Source: a virus
Direction: 5' to 3' (one strand)
IMG/VR virus record: IMGVR_UViG_3300027833_000091
Span: 1-43,069 of that record
Length of the DNA stretch: 43,069 nt
Of this stretch, positions 36,312 through 43,069 are shown piece after piece. The notes under the pieces were generated by a model. It was not told the origin of the DNA. It ran no database searches and saw nothing but the letters and a program-made list of their open reading frames with translations. Within the stretch, counting starts at the first letter, position 1. Every line of letters starts with the position of its first letter. The translations under genes and the position numbers were made by a program.

Positions 36312-37027
36312 TGGCTACACATCAAAATATAACTCACGAATATTATCATAATTCACAACCATCTTTAGAAATATGGGAAACTCTTTGGGAAGAGAATCAA
36401 TGGCCAATGTGGTACCATAAGTCGTATTCTGAATTTAACAATCAAGAAATTAAAGATCAAATAGAATCAGAAGCAGAAAAAAATGGAAATACTCCAGCAT
36501 ATCAAGCACTACTTTTTATAAAAAATCTGTATGAAGATTACATTCTTACAGGTGCAGGATTTTTTCATGTAGCTAAAAGCGATAGTAAACCAATTATGAT
36601 TCAGGTGTTTATAAGAGTACCGATGTATAATAAAGAAATAGACACCATTGCAGAAATTGTACCTAATTATCAAAAAGATACATGTTCTTTATTAATGAGT
36701 ATGAATATGACAGATCCAGATGGATCATCTGAATGGGCTCGTGATGGATGGGATATAGAAGGATTCGCCGATGAAGTTGCTAAAGTTCCAACACTTGAAA
36801 CAATATCTCAGATAGCGGGAGTTTGCGATGATGGTGGATGTAAAAGATGGTATGGTATTCCAACTGGAAAAATACAAAAAGCTTGGGTCACAAGAGACAA
36901 CAGAGCCGGCTGGGTAATGGAAGGTGGATATACTCCAGAAAAACTAGCCGATAATTCAACACCCTTATATTACTTTGGTCCTTTCGGCTGGCCTGAAGAC
37001 GCAGGGACAATAGGAGAACCAGAATAA
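36311..37027 (+). CDS. unknown late protein, possible fibre partner
   Basis: A 238-residue acidic, tryptophan-rich protein (SLEIWETLWEENQWPMWYH, DGSSEWARDGWDIEGF, RAGWVMEGGY). Start and stop overlap the neighbours by single bases. Probably a virion-associated or fibre-assembly protein given the position between a fibre-like protein and the lysozyme. No family recognised. Confidence 0.65.
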   Translation: MATHQNITHEYYHNSQPSLEIWETLWEENQWPMWYHKSYSEFNNQEIKDQIESEAEKNGNTPAYQALLFIKNLYEDYILTGAGFFHVAKSDSKPIMIQVFIRVPMYNKEIDTIAEIVPNYQKDTCSLLMSMNMTDPDGSSEWARDGWDIEGFADEVAKVPTLETISQIAGVCDDGGCKRWYGIPTGKIQKAWVTRDNRAGWVMEGGYTPEKLADNSTPLYYFGPFGWPEDAGTIGEPE

Positions 37028-37491
37028 TGTTTTGGAATAAAGAAACTGATATTGATGTAGATCAATTAATAGAACAATTAACAATAGACGAAGGAAAAGT
37101 ACTTGAAATTTATCATGACCATCTTGGTCTTCCTACTGTTGGTATTGGGCATCTCATCCTTGATTCTGATGAAGAAAGTGGACAAGCTTTGGGAACAGAA
37201 ATCACAGAAGAAAGATGCGTAGAACTATTTGAATCTGATTTAGAATCAGTGGTAGCTGATTGTAAAATATTACACGAGGGATGGGATGGTTACCCCCAAG
37301 AAGTTAAACAAGTTATTGCAAATATGATGTTTAACATGGGTAGAACTAGACTATCAAAATTTAAAAACCATAATATCGCTTTAAAAAGTGGTGATTGGAA
37401 AACTGCTGCTATTGAAGGTAGAGATTCAAGATGGTATAAACAAGTTACTAATAGAGCAGAAAGACTTATGTCTAGACTTGAAAAAGTATAA
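37027..37491 (+). CDS. T4-type lysozyme (endolysin)
   Basis: A 154-residue muramidase of the T4 lysozyme family. Catalytic residues E22, D31 and T37 keep the exact T4 spacing (E11, D20, T26) in IDEGKVLEIYHDHLGLPTVGIGH. The C-terminal SRWYKQVTNRAERLMSRL also matches T4 lysozyme. No signal peptide is seen, so release would need a holin. The late promoter for the next gene overlaps its last codons. Confidence 0.95.
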   Translation: MFWNKETDIDVDQLIEQLTIDEGKVLEIYHDHLGLPTVGIGHLILDSDEESGQALGTEITEERCVELFESDLESVVADCKILHEGWDGYPQEVKQVIANMMFNMGRTRLSKFKNHNIALKSGDWKTAAIEGRDSRWYKQVTNRAERLMSRLEKV

Positions 37492-37769: not shown

Positions 37770-38213
37770 ATGGCTTATTCTGCTAAAGTAGTAGAAAGAT
37801 TTAATGACGTATTAAATAATCCACATAAACATGGTGTCGGTAGGTTTGATCCTAACGACCCTAATGTTGCTACTGGAATGACAGGTGCTCCAGCATGTGG
37901 AGATGTCATGAAACTGGATTTAAAACTTGATCCAGAAACTGAACAAATATTAGATGTAAAATTTAAAACATATGGATGCGGTTCAGCTATTGCTTCATCT
38001 ACATTATTTGTTGAGATGCTAAAAGGTAAAACTATCAGTGAAGCCAAACTTATTAAAGATAGAGATATAGCTAAAGCTTTAGAATTACCCGCTATAAAAC
38101 TACACTGTTCAGTATTAGCAGAAGATTCCATTAAGAAAGCAATTCAGCATTGGGAAGAAAAAACTTCTCATAGAACTCATAATGGTGGCCCAGATGTTAG
38201 AACTGACCAATAG
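37770..38213 (+). CDS. iscU: IscU-type iron-sulfur scaffold
   Basis: Assembles [2Fe-2S] clusters for transfer to apo-proteins. The 147-residue protein keeps all ligands: C43 with D45 (GAPACGDVMKL), C70 (KTYGCGSAIASS) and H112-C113 (LPAIKLHCSVLAEDS). The usual chaperone-binding LPPVK motif is replaced by LPAIK, close to the canonical site. An IscA-type gene follows with overlap. Phage scaffolds of this kind are uncommon and could support host respiration or Fe-S enzymes during infection. Confidence 0.92.
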   Translation: MAYSAKVVERFNDVLNNPHKHGVGRFDPNDPNVATGMTGAPACGDVMKLDLKLDPETEQILDVKFKTYGCGSAIASSTLFVEMLKGKTISEAKLIKDRDIAKALELPAIKLHCSVLAEDSIKKAIQHWEEKTSHRTHNGGPDVRTDQ

Positions 38214-38514
38214 TGCAATTAAGCATATACTAAAAGAAACCCACGAAATGTTAGATCCAGCTATAAGAGTTGGAATAAAAAGTGGTGGATGCGGTGGATA
38301 TGAGTATATCATAGAACATGCCGATTCAATCAAAGAAGACGATAATATATTAGACTTTGACAAGTTTGTAATCGTCATCGATCCTGATTCAGTGCCTTAT
38401 ATCCAAGGCAGTTCACTGGATTATCAAAAAGAAGGTTTAAACCAATCATTTAAATTCGCTAATCCAAATGTCTCAATGGCATGTGGATGTGGGATATCTG
38501 TTCATTTCGAATAA
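38194..38514 (+). CDS. iscA: A-type iron-sulfur carrier (IscA/HesB family)
   Basis: A 106-residue carrier with the three canonical cysteines: C33 (SGGCGGYEY), and C97 and C99 (MACGCGISVHF). It overlaps the iscU gene by 20 bases; an ATG 12 bases upstream is an alternative start. Together with IscU it forms a short assembly-and-delivery pair, although no cysteine desulfurase is visible in the window. Confidence 0.92.
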   Translation: MLELTNSAIKHILKETHEMLDPAIRVGIKSGGCGGYEYIIEHADSIKEDDNILDFDKFVIVIDPDSVPYIQGSSLDYQKEGLNQSFKFANPNVSMACGCGISVHFE

Positions 38515-38522
38515 TCCAGCCT

Positions 38523-38530
38523 TATAAATA
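38523..38530 (+). promoter_or_regulatory. T4-type late promoter box before the curli region
   Basis: TATAAATA in the 21-base gap after iscA. It ends 5 bases before the next ATG, so the message is nearly leaderless. It is the nearest promoter upstream of the curli-type genes, which then form one unbroken overlapping run. Confidence 0.8.
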
Positions 38531-38535
38531 AAGGT

Positions 38536-38832
38536 ATGACCGAGATATTCACTTTAATTGCTGACGTCGGCGCACCAATTGGTGGTGCTCTGGTGATGGG
38601 CTTTTTTATATTTCTAGTACTGAAACAAATACTAGAAGGAATAGTAGATCAAATTGGAACACTAACTATGTTCTGCGAAAGCTTGGAAAATAGAGCTAGA
38701 ACAATGAGTAACGAAATGATAAAAATAGATATGTTAGTCTCATCAGCTTTAGAATTAAGACCTGATATTGAAAGAGTAGCAAGAGCTGAAAACTTTATTG
38801 AGGATGGAAAACTCGACGTCAGGAGAGACTAA
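38536..38832 (+). CDS. small membrane protein, holin-like
   Basis: A 98-residue protein with one N-terminal hydrophobic span (GGALVMGFFIFLVLKQIL) and a long helical, charged C-terminal part ending RPDIERVARAENFIEDGKLD. The next gene encodes a protein of the same plan, and the two could be diverged duplicates. They may be holin-type (BhlA/UviB-like) proteins or accessory membrane factors of the curli region. Confidence 0.65.
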   Translation: MTEIFTLIADVGAPIGGALVMGFFIFLVLKQILEGIVDQIGTLTMFCESLENRARTMSNEMIKIDMLVSSALELRPDIERVARAENFIEDGKLDVRRD

Positions 38833-39089
38833 TGGATATAGCTCAAGCAATATCCGATTACGGATTTCCAATGGTAATGGCTGTTGGTATGGGTTATTTC
38901 ATATACTATATATGGTGGTTTATTGGAGAAAAGGTTGATCCGGCATTAGGAAAAATGCATGTCGCACTTATAAGAGTTATCGATCAGACAAGGATGTTAG
39001 ATCAAGACTTAATACGCCTTCAACAAAAAGTTGATGTAGTATTAGAATATCGTGAAAACGAAAAAAAGAGGAAACCAAATGAAAATTAA
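38832..39089 (+). CDS. small membrane protein, paired with previous gene
   Basis: An 85-residue protein with ISDYGFPMVMAVGMGYFIYYIWWF as a membrane segment and a helical tail (LDQDLIRLQQKVDVVLEYRENEKK). The ...GFPM...GYFIYY... layout recalls BhlA/UviB-type holins. It overlaps the previous stop by one base and the csgF start by 11. Function unproven. Confidence 0.65.
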   Translation: MDIAQAISDYGFPMVMAVGMGYFIYYIWWFIGEKVDPALGKMHVALIRVIDQTRMLDQDLIRLQQKVDVVLEYRENEKKRKPNEN

Positions 39090-39606
39090 TGGAACACAAT
39101 TAGGAGTATTACTTATTGTACTATTTTTTTCAGCTCAAATTGTATTAGCAGATGAGTTAGTCCATAAATTTAAAAGTCCATCTTTTAGTGGTATAGGAAC
39201 TTCATCTCATTATTTGACTATTGAAAACCAAGAATTTTCTCGTAAAAAAGCTATAGCAGATGATATTGAAGCTGCATTATTACAAGCAGAAAGAGATGCT
39301 GAAAATACTACATTAGCTAAGTTTATGAGAAACTTAGAAAGCAGAATTTATGCTCAATTAAGCAAACAATTAGTAGAGAGTTTATTTTCTACTTGCGATA
39401 TTACAGATCCAGCATGTCAAACATCTAGTTTTGGTAGTTTTGTGTTGGAGGGTAATACCATTACTTATCAAAGAACAACTTGTGATTCATCCATATGGGC
39501 ATGTACTCAAAATGAAGAGGTTATAGTTATGACAATTGTCGCTGAAGATGGATCAGAGACAACGATTGTAATACCTATTGGAGCTGGAAGTGCTGGAACA
39601 GGCTAA
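39079..39606 (+). CDS. csgF: CsgF-like curli assembly protein
   Basis: A 175-residue secreted protein. Signal peptide MKINGTQLGVLLIVLFFSAQ to about residue 25 is followed by ADELVHKFKSPSFSG, the FxxPxFxG type of N-terminus that inserts into the CsgG pore in CsgF. After a helical stretch come GSFVLEGNTITYQ and VIVMTIVAEDGSETTIVIPIG, matching CsgF's C-terminal beta region. It is longer than E. coli CsgF (138) and has four cysteines in the insert. The ATG follows GAGGAAA. It precedes csgG with an overlap. Confidence 0.82.
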   Translation: MKINGTQLGVLLIVLFFSAQIVLADELVHKFKSPSFSGIGTSSHYLTIENQEFSRKKAIADDIEAALLQAERDAENTTLAKFMRNLESRIYAQLSKQLVESLFSTCDITDPACQTSSFGSFVLEGNTITYQRTTCDSSIWACTQNEEVIVMTIVAEDGSETTIVIPIGAGSAGTG

Positions 39607-40501
39607 AGTATTAAGTTTAGTTATAATCTCGATTGTATTGTCAAGTTGTGCGGGAATGCCGAGTATGACAGATAGTTGTAGCGATAGCTTAATGGAGTAT
39701 ATTGGTGAGTGTATAGAAAAGCCAATAGTAGTACATCTTCCAACGCATAAAGAACTACTTGAATTACCAGCACCAGAAAAACAACCTGTAGTGGCTGTAT
39801 ATGGATTTCCAGATTTAACAGGACAAAGAAAACAAAAAGGTGACTCAGCAATGTTTAGTACTGCAGTTACTCAAGGGGCATCAACAATGTTAATTGATGC
39901 TTTAAAAACTGCTGGTCAAGGAAGTTGGTTTAGAGTAGTAGAAAGAGTGGGATTAGACCACTTAACAAGAGAACGACAAATCGTTCGAACAACTAGAGAA
40001 CAGTATGGCGAAAAAGATGAAACAGGTTTAGCACCTCTTCTTTTCGCTGGAATAATTCTTGAAGGAGGTGTCATTGGATTTGATACTAATATCAAGACTG
40101 GAGGTGCTGGAGCAAGATATCTTGGAGTAGGAACATCGCGAGCTTATAGAAGAGATATTGTTACAGTACATTTAAGAGCCGTTAGCACATTGACGGGTGA
40201 AGTTTTATTGAATGTGCAAACATCGAAAACTATTTTGGCTGTCGCTAATGGGTACGATGTTTTTAAATTCGTTGATATGAGTACCCAACTTGTAGAAATA
40301 GAAGATGGGATAACTGAAAATGAATCAGTAACACGATCGCTAAGATCCACAATCGAAGCGGCTGTGTTAGAACTAATATACCAAGGCCATGACAGAGGTT
40401 TTTGGAACATTAAGGCAGGCCATCGCCACCCCCATGGAACTCATGGAAAAAACGATAAGCATGTCTTAGAAGAGGAAAATAAAAATGAAAATGTTAAATA
40501 G
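39590..40501 (+). CDS. csgG: CsgG curli secretion channel
   Basis: Outer-membrane nonameric pore that exports curlin subunits. The 303-residue lipoprotein has a short signal peptide with lipobox IVLSSC, then the whole CsgG pattern: ELPAPEKQPVVAVYGFPDLTGQ, FSTAVTQGASTMLIDAL, RVVERVGLDHLTRERQIVR, IILEGGVIGFDTNIKTGGAGARYLG, YRRDIVTVHLRAVSTLTGEVL, TSKTILA and DRGFWNIK. The loop after GQ is one residue longer than in E. coli and does not keep the constriction Tyr and Asn. A His-rich tail follows. I chose the GTG 7 bases after GGAG; a TTG 12 bases upstream is possible. Confidence 0.95.
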   Translation: MLEQAKVLSLVIISIVLSSCAGMPSMTDSCSDSLMEYIGECIEKPIVVHLPTHKELLELPAPEKQPVVAVYGFPDLTGQRKQKGDSAMFSTAVTQGASTMLIDALKTAGQGSWFRVVERVGLDHLTRERQIVRTTREQYGEKDETGLAPLLFAGIILEGGVIGFDTNIKTGGAGARYLGVGTSRAYRRDIVTVHLRAVSTLTGEVLLNVQTSKTILAVANGYDVFKFVDMSTQLVEIEDGITENESVTRSLRSTIEAAVLELIYQGHDRGFWNIKAGHRHPHGTHGKNDKHVLEEENKNENVK

Positions 40502-41213
40502 ATATATCGCATTTGCTATTTTATTATGCCCTGTGGTTGCTTTTGCTAGCACTAATGACAACAAGGTACTATTGGATCAGTCTGGTGATACATTAGTTTT
40601 AACTATTGACCAAATCGGTTATGGTAATAAACTATGTGGATCTATAACTGGTGGTGATTGTGCTACTGATTGGATATTAACTGGTAATAGCGTAACTATG
40701 GACATTGACATGATCGGTAACTTAAACCAAATCTTTGGTCCAACTCTTTTCGACTCCACTGATGTAGATTTAGCTATAACAGGCAACTCGAATATATGGG
40801 ATTGGAACGTAGGATATGGTGGAAGTGCTGATAGTTCAACCGTCGACGTAGCAATAAGTGGAAGTTCAAATACATTTGATATAGATTGGGGTTATAATGC
40901 TTCATCTGAAAGATTGAATATGGACTTAGACATTACTGGTGGGTCAAACGTTTGGGATATCAATATCGATGCAGATGATGTTACATGGGATATCGATGTT
41001 ATTGGATCATCTAATAACTTCGCAACAACTCAATCCGATGGTGCTTATCAATCAGTCACTTTAGAGTGGATTGGTAGTAATGGAGATATTGATATTCTTC
41101 AAACATCAGGAACCTGTCCAACAGGTATAACAAGTTGTTACGGGATTATAAATGCAGATTTCGATACAGAAAACGCTACAGTTGATATTAAGCAAAAAGA
41201 TACTGGCGACTAG
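40485..41213 (+). CDS. secreted curlin-repeat-like protein A
   Basis: A 242-residue exported protein: signal peptide MLNRYIAFAILLCPVVAFAS (about 22 residues), then repeated short beta units with the pattern (I/V)-(T/S/I)-G-x-S-N-x-(W/F)-D, for example AITGNSNIWDWN, AISGSSNTFDID, DITGGSNVWDIN and DVIGSSNNFATT. This resembles curlin repeats but with Asp/Trp replacing the Gln positions. It lies between csgG and a FecR-domain gene. It probably polymerises into, or decorates, curli-like fibres on the cell surface. Confidence 0.78.
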   Translation: MKMLNRYIAFAILLCPVVAFASTNDNKVLLDQSGDTLVLTIDQIGYGNKLCGSITGGDCATDWILTGNSVTMDIDMIGNLNQIFGPTLFDSTDVDLAITGNSNIWDWNVGYGGSADSSTVDVAISGSSNTFDIDWGYNASSERLNMDLDITGGSNVWDINIDADDVTWDIDVIGSSNNFATTQSDGAYQSVTLEWIGSNGDIDILQTSGTCPTGITSCYGIINADFDTENATVDIKQKDTGD

Positions 41214-42318
41214 CCTTTTATTAGTTAGTCAGATATCTTTTGCTAATAATATAGGCGGGATAGAAGAACACAAGGGCAGTGGTGGTATTACTCGCTTAGG
41301 AGAGAATATTACCACTGAGCTTGGCTTAGGTATACAACAGCTAGATCATGTTGAAACGGCACAAGGCCGGATGTTACTAAAATTTCTAGATGATTCTGTA
41401 GTTCGCTTAACTGAACATACTGAAGTTACTCTTACTAAGTATTATTACGATCCCAATAAAAAAGCTAGCGCAAGTATGACAATGAATTTCGTGTCAGGTA
41501 CAGCACGGTTTTCAACAGGAAGATTAGGTTTAGTACCAAAAGAAAATATAAAAATACAAACTCCAACAGCTACAATAGGTGTAAGGGGTACAGATTTTAC
41601 AACTTCGGTTGATGAATTAGGAAGAAGTTTAGTAATACTTTTACCAGAAACAGAATGCACAATTGATGGTGATTGTTCTCCAAGTGGAGAAATAACAGTT
41701 ACTAATGAAGGTGGAGTAGTTACTTTAACTGAAGCTTATCAAGCAACGATGGTTTCAAATATAAGTACTATAGCAACACAACCAGTAATATTGGATAATA
41801 TTAATTTAAATATGATTGATAATATGTTTATTGTTAATCCACCAAGAGAAATAACTGAACAACAAAATGAAGAGCAGAATGGAAGTAGTAGTGCTAACGT
41901 TAGTATTCTCGACTTCACTGATCTTGATACAGATTACTTAAAGGAAGATTTTCTTGCTGAAGATGATTTAGAATTTAATGAATTAGATATGGATCTATTA
42001 GACGTTGAGTTCTTACAAGATGTTTTAGTAGCTTTGGAAGAAGTAAGTATATTTAATAGAAGATCTGGTAGTGCTGGAGATGCAGGAGATATAGTTGGAA
42101 CAAGTGCTCCAGGTTTTGATAAAGACACTCAATATAATACTATAATAGATCAAGGAGCAGGTCAAATTTGGTTCTATAGAGAAGTAAATGGAATAGTATC
42201 AATAAGGATACCTATAGGAACCAATTTAACATTGGATACAGAAAATGAAGGTAGAAAAAATAACATTATCGTTGGCGATGGCCAGTCTGTTATTATCACC
42301 ATTCGCCAAGGCGGATAA
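41152..42318 (+). CDS. exported FecR-domain protein in the curli operon
   Basis: A 388-residue exported protein with a signal-like N-terminus (LATSLLLVSQISFANN, ending near residue 33), a FecR-type beta domain with MLLKFLDDSVVRLTEHTEV, FVSGTARFSTG and the hallmark TPTATIGVRGTDF, then a long acidic linker and a C-terminal beta segment (NLTLDTENEGRKNNIIVG...IITIRQGG) that resembles a curlin repeat. A TTG at 41182 is an alternative start. The overlaps with both curlin-like genes mean these genes evolved as one unit. Confidence 0.8.
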   Translation: MQISIQKTLQLILSKKILATSLLLVSQISFANNIGGIEEHKGSGGITRLGENITTELGLGIQQLDHVETAQGRMLLKFLDDSVVRLTEHTEVTLTKYYYDPNKKASASMTMNFVSGTARFSTGRLGLVPKENIKIQTPTATIGVRGTDFTTSVDELGRSLVILLPETECTIDGDCSPSGEITVTNEGGVVTLTEAYQATMVSNISTIATQPVILDNINLNMIDNMFIVNPPREITEQQNEEQNGSSSANVSILDFTDLDTDYLKEDFLAEDDLEFNELDMDLLDVEFLQDVLVALEEVSIFNRRSGSAGDAGDIVGTSAPGFDKDTQYNTIIDQGAGQIWFYREVNGIVSIRIPIGTNLTLDTENEGRKNNIIVGDGQSVIITIRQGG

Positions 42319-42967
42319 CAAGATAATACTTGAAAACGTTTTTGATGGCGATAATTTAACACTAAAAATAGAGCAAGTTGGTGCTAATAACACTATTAAT
42401 TGCTATCAAATAAATTCATGTGATGTTGATGGAAATAATGTATCATTACATTTTGAACAAACAAATGAATCATCAAATGAAAATAAAATACAAATATGGC
42501 ATTTAGACGGAAACAGTAATCAAATAAGATGGGGCCAAGGTGTTTCATTAAATAGCGCAACTGATACTGGATTTTTATATGACAGTTCAGACTCAGGTGG
42601 TCATTATGCTCGTATGGATATACATGGAGATAGTAATTCTATTGTAGGATTCCAACAGAATGGAGGGGGTAGTAATTCTGGTCATACGTTTACTACTTTA
42701 ATATGGAGTGACAATAATGAAATATGGGCTAGGCAGCAGGGAGATGGCGCTAAGTCATTACACATTCAAACATATAACGATGGTAATGAAATAGAAGTAA
42801 GACAAAAGGGAAATGGTGCTAATCATTCAGCCAATATTGTTTTATCTGGAACATATCCTACAGATTTATATTTGTTTCAAAGAAGTGGAGTAACTCAATC
42901 ATATTCTCTTACTCAAAATTGTCAGACAGTTGGCGGTTGTGGTATCAGCGTAACTCAGGGTGACTAA
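42245..42967 (+). CDS. secreted curlin-repeat-like protein B
   Basis: A 240-residue exported protein: signal peptide MKVEKITLSLAMASLLLSPF then ADNK. Repeats include DGNSNQIRWGQG, HGDSNSIVGFQQNG, WSDNNEIWARQQGDG and YNDGNEIEVRQKGNG, close to the canonical curlin pattern N-x-(A/I)-x-x-x-Q-x-G. It is closer to CsgA/CsgB than protein A is. The gene overlaps the FecR-domain gene by 74 bases and the next gene by one. Confidence 0.85.
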   Translation: MKVEKITLSLAMASLLLSPFAKADNKIILENVFDGDNLTLKIEQVGANNTINCYQINSCDVDGNNVSLHFEQTNESSNENKIQIWHLDGNSNQIRWGQGVSLNSATDTGFLYDSSDSGGHYARMDIHGDSNSIVGFQQNGGGSNSGHTFTTLIWSDNNEIWARQQGDGAKSLHIQTYNDGNEIEVRQKGNGANHSANIVLSGTYPTDLYLFQRSGVTQSYSLTQNCQTVGGCGISVTQGD

Positions 42968-43069
42968 TGAATAGAATGGAATGCCCAGAAGAATATTACG
43001 AGTGTCTTACAGAAGAAGAGTACGATAATATATTAGAACTCTTCGAAGAAAATGATATATCATTTCCAG
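42967..43069 (+). CDS. start of an acidic unknown protein, truncated by window edge
   Basis: Begins at an ATG overlapping the previous stop (TAATG) and stays open to the end of the window: 34 residues, MNRMECPEEYYECLTEEEYDN..., strongly acidic with two cysteines. Translational coupling to the curli operon suggests it may belong to it. Nothing more can be said from the fragment. Confidence 0.55.
   Translation, partial: MNRMECPEEYYECLTEEEYDNILELFEENDISFP

Follow-up and report, generated by a model that had tools for sequence, protein, structure and literature searches.

The end of a 43,069-nt viral DNA record (IMG/VR IMGVR_UViG_3300027833_000091, analysed over its whole length and termed here the window) carries one overlapping run of genes, in the genome of a marine T4-type phage, that encodes CsgF, CsgG, two curlin-type proteins (Cur1 and Cur2) and a FecR-domain protein. 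We read this run as a curli (type VIII) secretion operon that the phage encodes and expresses late, and whose surface fibre would be tethered by the FecR-domain protein (hereafter FecR), a reading to which we assign a probability of about 0.45. The operon type was published in 2020-2022, and the window is a further, divergent member of it (CsgG 46% identical to that of Pelagibacter phage HTVC008M). Added here are the position of a late promoter (-13) ahead of the first gene, S1; the occurrence of S1 and its paralog S2, lacking a kinase domain, at the position previously labelled histidine kinase (HK); and the architecture of FecR. Coordinates are collected in Table 1.

Table 1. Features of the phage curli operon and its promoter (TM, transmembrane; pLDDT, predicted local distance difference test; pTM, predicted template modelling score; ORF, open reading frame)
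Feature	Position	Strand	Evidence or remark
T4-type late promoter element TATAAATA	38523..38530	+	13 nt ahead of S1 ATG
S1, 98 aa, one predicted TM helix and coiled coil	38536..38832	+	phrog_18771 6.5e-25, without Pfam kinase
S2, 85-aa S1 paralog	38832..39089	+	phrog_18771 3.3e-24; YvrJ and holin similarity sub-threshold
CsgF, predicted exported	39079..39606	+	PF10614 5.7e-9; CsgG-binding N-terminus mostly retained
CsgG outer-membrane pore lipoprotein, lipobox LSSC	39578..40501 (start TTG 39578 or GTG 39590)	+	PF03783 8.7e-52
Cur1, predicted exported curlin-type beta-solenoid	40485..41213	+	AlphaFold2 pLDDT 85.2, pTM 0.78
FecR-domain predicted exported protein	41152..42318 (start ATG 41152 or TTG 41182)	+	PF04773 2.2e-11
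Cur2, second predicted exported curlin-type protein, C-terminal Cys pair	42245..42967	+	BLASTP 3e-9 to HTVC008M curlin-repeat protein
Small membrane-protein gene, start only (cut by record end)	42967..43069	+	resembles intervening ORFs of loci L012, L024, L060, L070

An original prediction, made from the letters of the window alone, had placed the five genes between 39079 and 42967 of a T4-type phage genome. All five lie in one overlapping run where it put them, and the genome type is borne out by helicase, ribonucleotide reductase and exonuclease genes in the window. The extent proved too narrow. The operon starts upstream of csgF, at 38536, with S1 and S2, two one-TM paralogs of ~90 aa spanning 38536-39089; a small membrane-protein gene begins at 42967 and in several relatives lies between Cur2 and a CHASE2-adenylate cyclase (AC), which ends the operon in relatives and here would fall past the end of the record at 43069. 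A survey of relatives recovered the full order S1-S2-CsgF-CsgG-Cur1-FecR-Cur2-AC in 49 of 84 loci, the remainder being nearly all truncations of the same order, and the isolates HTVC008M and Melnitz share it. The 49 complete loci show that the operon is not an assembly artefact, and joining of a bacterial contaminant is ruled out by its presence in dozens of independent contigs. The tRNA and Rfam scans of the window found none.

Profile hidden Markov model searches upheld the identities proposed for CsgF, CsgG and FecR, all three Pfam matches exceeding the curated cut-offs. A profile of phage CsgG also matched solved CsgG structures in the PDB (4e-67), its lipobox Cys24 is invariant across the alignment, and identity to the Melnitz protein is 42%; the CsgF and FecR profiles retrieved nothing useful from the PDB by sequence. 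The N-terminus of phage CsgF retains the segment F-x-[SN]-P-S-F-S-G, the part of the bacterial protein that occupies the channel of CsgG (PMC12311626), and the CsgG-contact positions F24, G32 and N37 described in that paper for bacterial CsgF appear altered in the phage when aligned by eye. A loss of pairing between the phage versions of CsgF and CsgG has been suggested as possible (PMC9004378); because the segment is retained, the alignment does not favour such a loss.

The curlin repeats, said to be visible by eye, were confirmed less directly. Neither window protein reached the cut-off of Pfam Curlin_rpt, but relatives of each pass it (6 of 51 for Cur1, 19 of 41 for Cur2), and alignment of both proteins to these relatives, together with a model of Cur1, assigns them as curlin-repeat subunits. 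Cur1, which also matched the Melnitz curlin by BLASTP (6e-8), was the one of the two to be folded, and the expected beta-solenoid was predicted with confidence. Near matches to this model include CsgA (8c50; Z 16.4, root-mean-square deviation (rmsd) 8.9 over 192 residues), and SufB/SufD and other beta-helices score like CsgA, so that the fold alone is not curlin-specific. Nor were motif counts against shuffled sequences taken as proof of curlin identity: GxN turns were enriched in Cur1 (P 0.0055; Cur2, P 0.28), and alternating strands gave the opposite pattern. In HTVC008M, Cur2 (L081, 8564-9886) carries a PA14 domain (2.7e-6) next to its curlin repeats, possibly a glycan-binding fibre tip.

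A T4-type late promoter had been proposed for the operon, and its conserved place in relatives supports this, except that it precedes S1 and not csgF. Among 57 distinct upstream regions, taken from relatives and the window, 38 have TATAAATA exactly at -13 of the S1 ATG, where ~0.009 copies are expected per 60-nt region; the count ignores the relatedness of the loci, in which the flanking sequence varies widely. At one further locus it stands at -32, and several others show a near variant, CATAAATA for example, at the -13 place. The evidence from TATAAATA lies in this fixed position across relatives and not in its number within the window, which is at chance (9 copies, 8.97 expected). Three other window copies close to a gene lie 27-29 nt before its ATG. 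In T4 late promoters a spacing of -13 would place the start of the transcript at or beside the AUG, and the shorter spacing at S1 suggests a message that is leaderless or nearly so.

FecR has the least familiar architecture of the set. Its structure model comprises a signal helix, a FecR beta domain (~35-201), a further helix, an acidic linker (~225-315) and a C-terminal domain (~321-388). The linker, modelled at low confidence or as unstructured, has 24 acidic and 4 basic among 91 residues; the C-terminal domain is confidently modelled as six short strands, the last of them curlin-like. Each of the 101 unique complete sequences terminates in [IVL]x[IVL]xQ plus 1-3 residues, resembling the ends of curlins, compared with 0 of 558 background ORFs for the strict motif and 3 of 558 for a looser form; the motif had been spotted in these same, related sequences beforehand, and the 101 of 101 therefore measures conservation and not independent events. 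Residues 321-388 gave no clear fold match, in a region that was barely tested. For the model, the best match among solved structures is the anti-sigma regulator PupR (Z 15.5). Another match, confined to one half of the FecR domain, is to 5ix9 (73 of 76 residues, Z 7.4, below the guide of Z 8; rmsd 2.1), a 'cell surface anchoring domain' that we take to be that of the giant M. primoryensis adhesin. Since both are matched, the fold cannot decide between an anchor and a regulator. Searched against 289 alphaproteobacterial genomes, the profile gave listed matches confined to positions up to ~270 of its 380, which correspond to the FecR domain. Of the best 50 matches, 35 lay in open frames longer than 500 aa, and nearly all of ten examined were N-terminal in long frames, some with RTX motifs. 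From sequence and model together we infer that phage FecR may serve as a fibre anchor or nucleator and not as an iron regulator.

Retention modules of the LapA/MpIBP type, which hold adhesins in their outer-membrane pore, resemble phage FecR in their succession of a beta domain, a helix and an unstructured segment (PMC13090378) and, at a score below the guide value, in the half-domain fold match to 5ix9. Phage FecR differs from them in having a signal peptide, in lacking RTX repeats and, in 103 of 105 sequences, a LapG-type site, and in that its pore would be CsgG rather than TolC. The cyclase of relatives, a CHASE2 domain joined to a class III cyclase domain, recalls the FecR-CHASE2 operons of BiofilmReg type (PMC5192318), in which an exported FecR-domain protein likewise stands beside a CHASE2 sensor; the protein there is a LysM-FecR with a histidine kinase, whereas the phage operons have a curlin-tailed FecR with a cyclase. 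In line with that pairing, a FecR gene lay within ~6 kb of 10 of 20 bacterial CHASE2-cyclase loci, against ~1% expected from FecR density.

With S1/S2 as query, CsgF was found downstream in 77 of 80 loci. Two of the others are short contigs; in the third, which is rearranged (L310, 3995-8286), S1-S2 lacks an adjoining CsgF, a methyltransferase-like ORF comes next and the cyclase is on the opposite strand. The TM helix of both proteins was called by eye, PDB searches gave only coiled coils and similar structures, and matches to the holin family phrog_4898 (E 0.024-0.19) fall below any useful threshold. No kinase family matched any of 28 S1/S2 members. In PMC9599517, the gene before CsgF is labelled HK; by position this appears to be S1/S2, for which the sequences give the label no support.

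The statement in the original prediction that curli-type genes occur in reports on pelagic phages was sound: CsgF and CsgG are reported from pelagimyophages (PMC7029224), and a hypothesis of lysis accompanies the description of Methylophilales phage Melnitz (PMC9004378). The expectation that two curlins with FecR would be less described did not hold. The set appears in the GenBank annotation of Melnitz (MZ577097), as curlin-repeat and FecR proteins, and in PMC9599517, as HK-CsgF-CsgG-CsgA/B-FecR-CsgA/B-AC in myo- and podo-type pelagiphages; of this module the window has the order CsgF-CsgG-CsgA/B-FecR-CsgA/B. The functions that had been offered (surface amyloid, lysis pore, exclusion, aggregation) had likewise been hypothesised in print. 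A literature search, with most subscription journals outside its coverage, found no later papers on phage curli. HTVC008M (NC_020484; PMC9599517, PMC7029224) has the same order of two small genes, CsgF, CsgG, curlin, FecR, curlin and cyclase, and differs from the window in CsgG sequence and in the PA14 domain of its Cur2. Melnitz also shares the order, although the text of PMC9004378 states that csgA/csgB are lacking and prefers a role in lysis. With bacterial type VIII secretion systems (E. coli, Alphaproteobacteria) the phage version has CsgF, CsgG and curlins in common; it differs in having S1/S2, FecR and the CHASE2 cyclase, none of which was found near curli at three alphaproteobacterial loci examined, and in lacking CsgE in the records searched. 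Alphaproteobacterial curli modules also lack CsgE, and the pelagiphage host has no such envelope-fibre system of its own (PMC9599517). In 7 phage records, some of them fragments, CsgE was not found, while the E. coli control scored.

On the tethered-fibre reading, Cur1, Cur2 and FecR, which have signal-peptide-like N-termini, would reach the host periplasm late in infection. CsgG would form a pore in the outer membrane, with CsgF sitting on the outside of it, and both curlins would cross this pore to build an amyloid-like fibre. The folded FecR domain would remain in the periplasm, the acidic linker of ~90 residues would run through the pore, and the curlin-like C-terminal domain would initiate or cap the fibre, which could thus stay tethered without CsgE; the CHASE2 cyclase may signal, as cyclic AMP, what state the FecR domain in the periplasm is in. 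The most likely benefit would be that fibres on the dying cell keep neighbouring host cells, debris or virions near. The even cysteine counts found after residue 25 in CsgF (106 of 110 sequences), curlins (198 of 207) and FecR (106 of 108) suggest disulfide pairs in these predicted exported proteins. More tentatively, and with some doubt, we propose FecR as a new curli part that would replace CsgB and CsgE in anchoring the fibre and nucleating it, combining an adhesin-like periplasmic retention domain, a pore-threading linker and a curlin-like end with a readout by the CHASE2 cyclase; on this proposal a virus would have fused the retention of adhesins with curli secretion.

Several observations weigh against a FecR-tethered fibre. 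Known anti-sigma FecR structures match the model better than 5ix9, whose score is under the guide value; no bacterial FecR match in the genomes searched reaches the curlin-like tail, leaving the combination without precedent; clumping was not seen in Melnitz cultures (PMC9004378); and S1/S2 have no part in the scheme. An eight-gene set, predicted to make an envelope fibre, is carried by phages that infect very abundant marine bacteria. FecR as anchor-nucleator would be a concrete and testable part of it, and two published labels that steer hypotheses, histidine kinase and iron regulator, are open to question.

Among the alternatives, reuse of the CsgG pore for lysis timing (PMC9004378) is unlikely. 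On this view the envelope would be depolarised by CsgG, perhaps aided by S1/S2 acting like holins in the inner membrane, and the curlins would be secondary. The late promoter suits this, as do a T4-type lysozyme gene (37027-37491) lying ~1 kb ahead of that promoter, a SleB-like cell-wall hydrolase, recognised by eye, between Cur2 and the cyclase in one clade (L018, L034, L039, L042, L050), and the weak holin similarity of S2 (phrog_4898, 0.024). However, CsgG is an outer-membrane lipoprotein and not a pinholin, the holin match carries no usable score, and two conserved curlins, CsgF and a curlin-tailed FecR in every complete operon are left unexplained. We judge no more probable the shielding of the infected cell against superinfection by fibres or a pore coat, as proposed in PMC9599517: CsgG and CsgF imply surface display, but the late promoter suggests expression once competitors are already inside.

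That FecR acts with a histidine kinase to regulate curli expression in response to iron or citrate (PMC9599517) seems distinctly improbable. The FecR domain does exceed its Pfam cut-off and PupR is its best structural match; yet in the model this domain directly follows a signal-peptide-like helix, without the N-terminal cytoplasmic anti-sigma part and TM segment, the operon has no sigma gene, the C-terminus is curlin-like, and the 28 S1/S2 proteins lack a kinase domain. Least probable, by a little, is an open CsgG pore that imports nutrients or cofactors, the other genes being incidental (PMC7029224, PMC9599517), which the failure to find a CsgE gate in the 7 records would suit but the constant co-conservation of curlins and FecR with CsgG would not.

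Beyond the loci described, the operon occurs on viral contigs 217 kb and 340 kb long (L289, L291). Phage-type curli operons were also found in metagenome-assembled genomes (MAGs) labelled Sphingobacteriales, Flavobacteriaceae, Pelagibacter and others (L164-L177), which are probably misbinned phage contigs; the profile scan of genome contigs retrieved mostly such operons inside MAGs and few true bacterial relatives. CsgG is encoded in OR851715.1, a record of 1,499 bases that bears the name Salmonella phage S.Kent 1-2-1 and may be bacterial DNA. A C-terminal 'IPIG' motif that CsgF and FecR seemed by eye to share was dropped after profile comparison (probability 1.4%). Upstream of S1, at 37770-38514, lie NifU-like and IscA-like Fe-S genes, and other clades have a NifU-like gene within the operon itself, ahead of the cyclase. 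In one clade (L035, L073, and related loci with the same spacing) an ORF of ~280 aa, by eye radical SAM-like, stands between S2 and CsgF.

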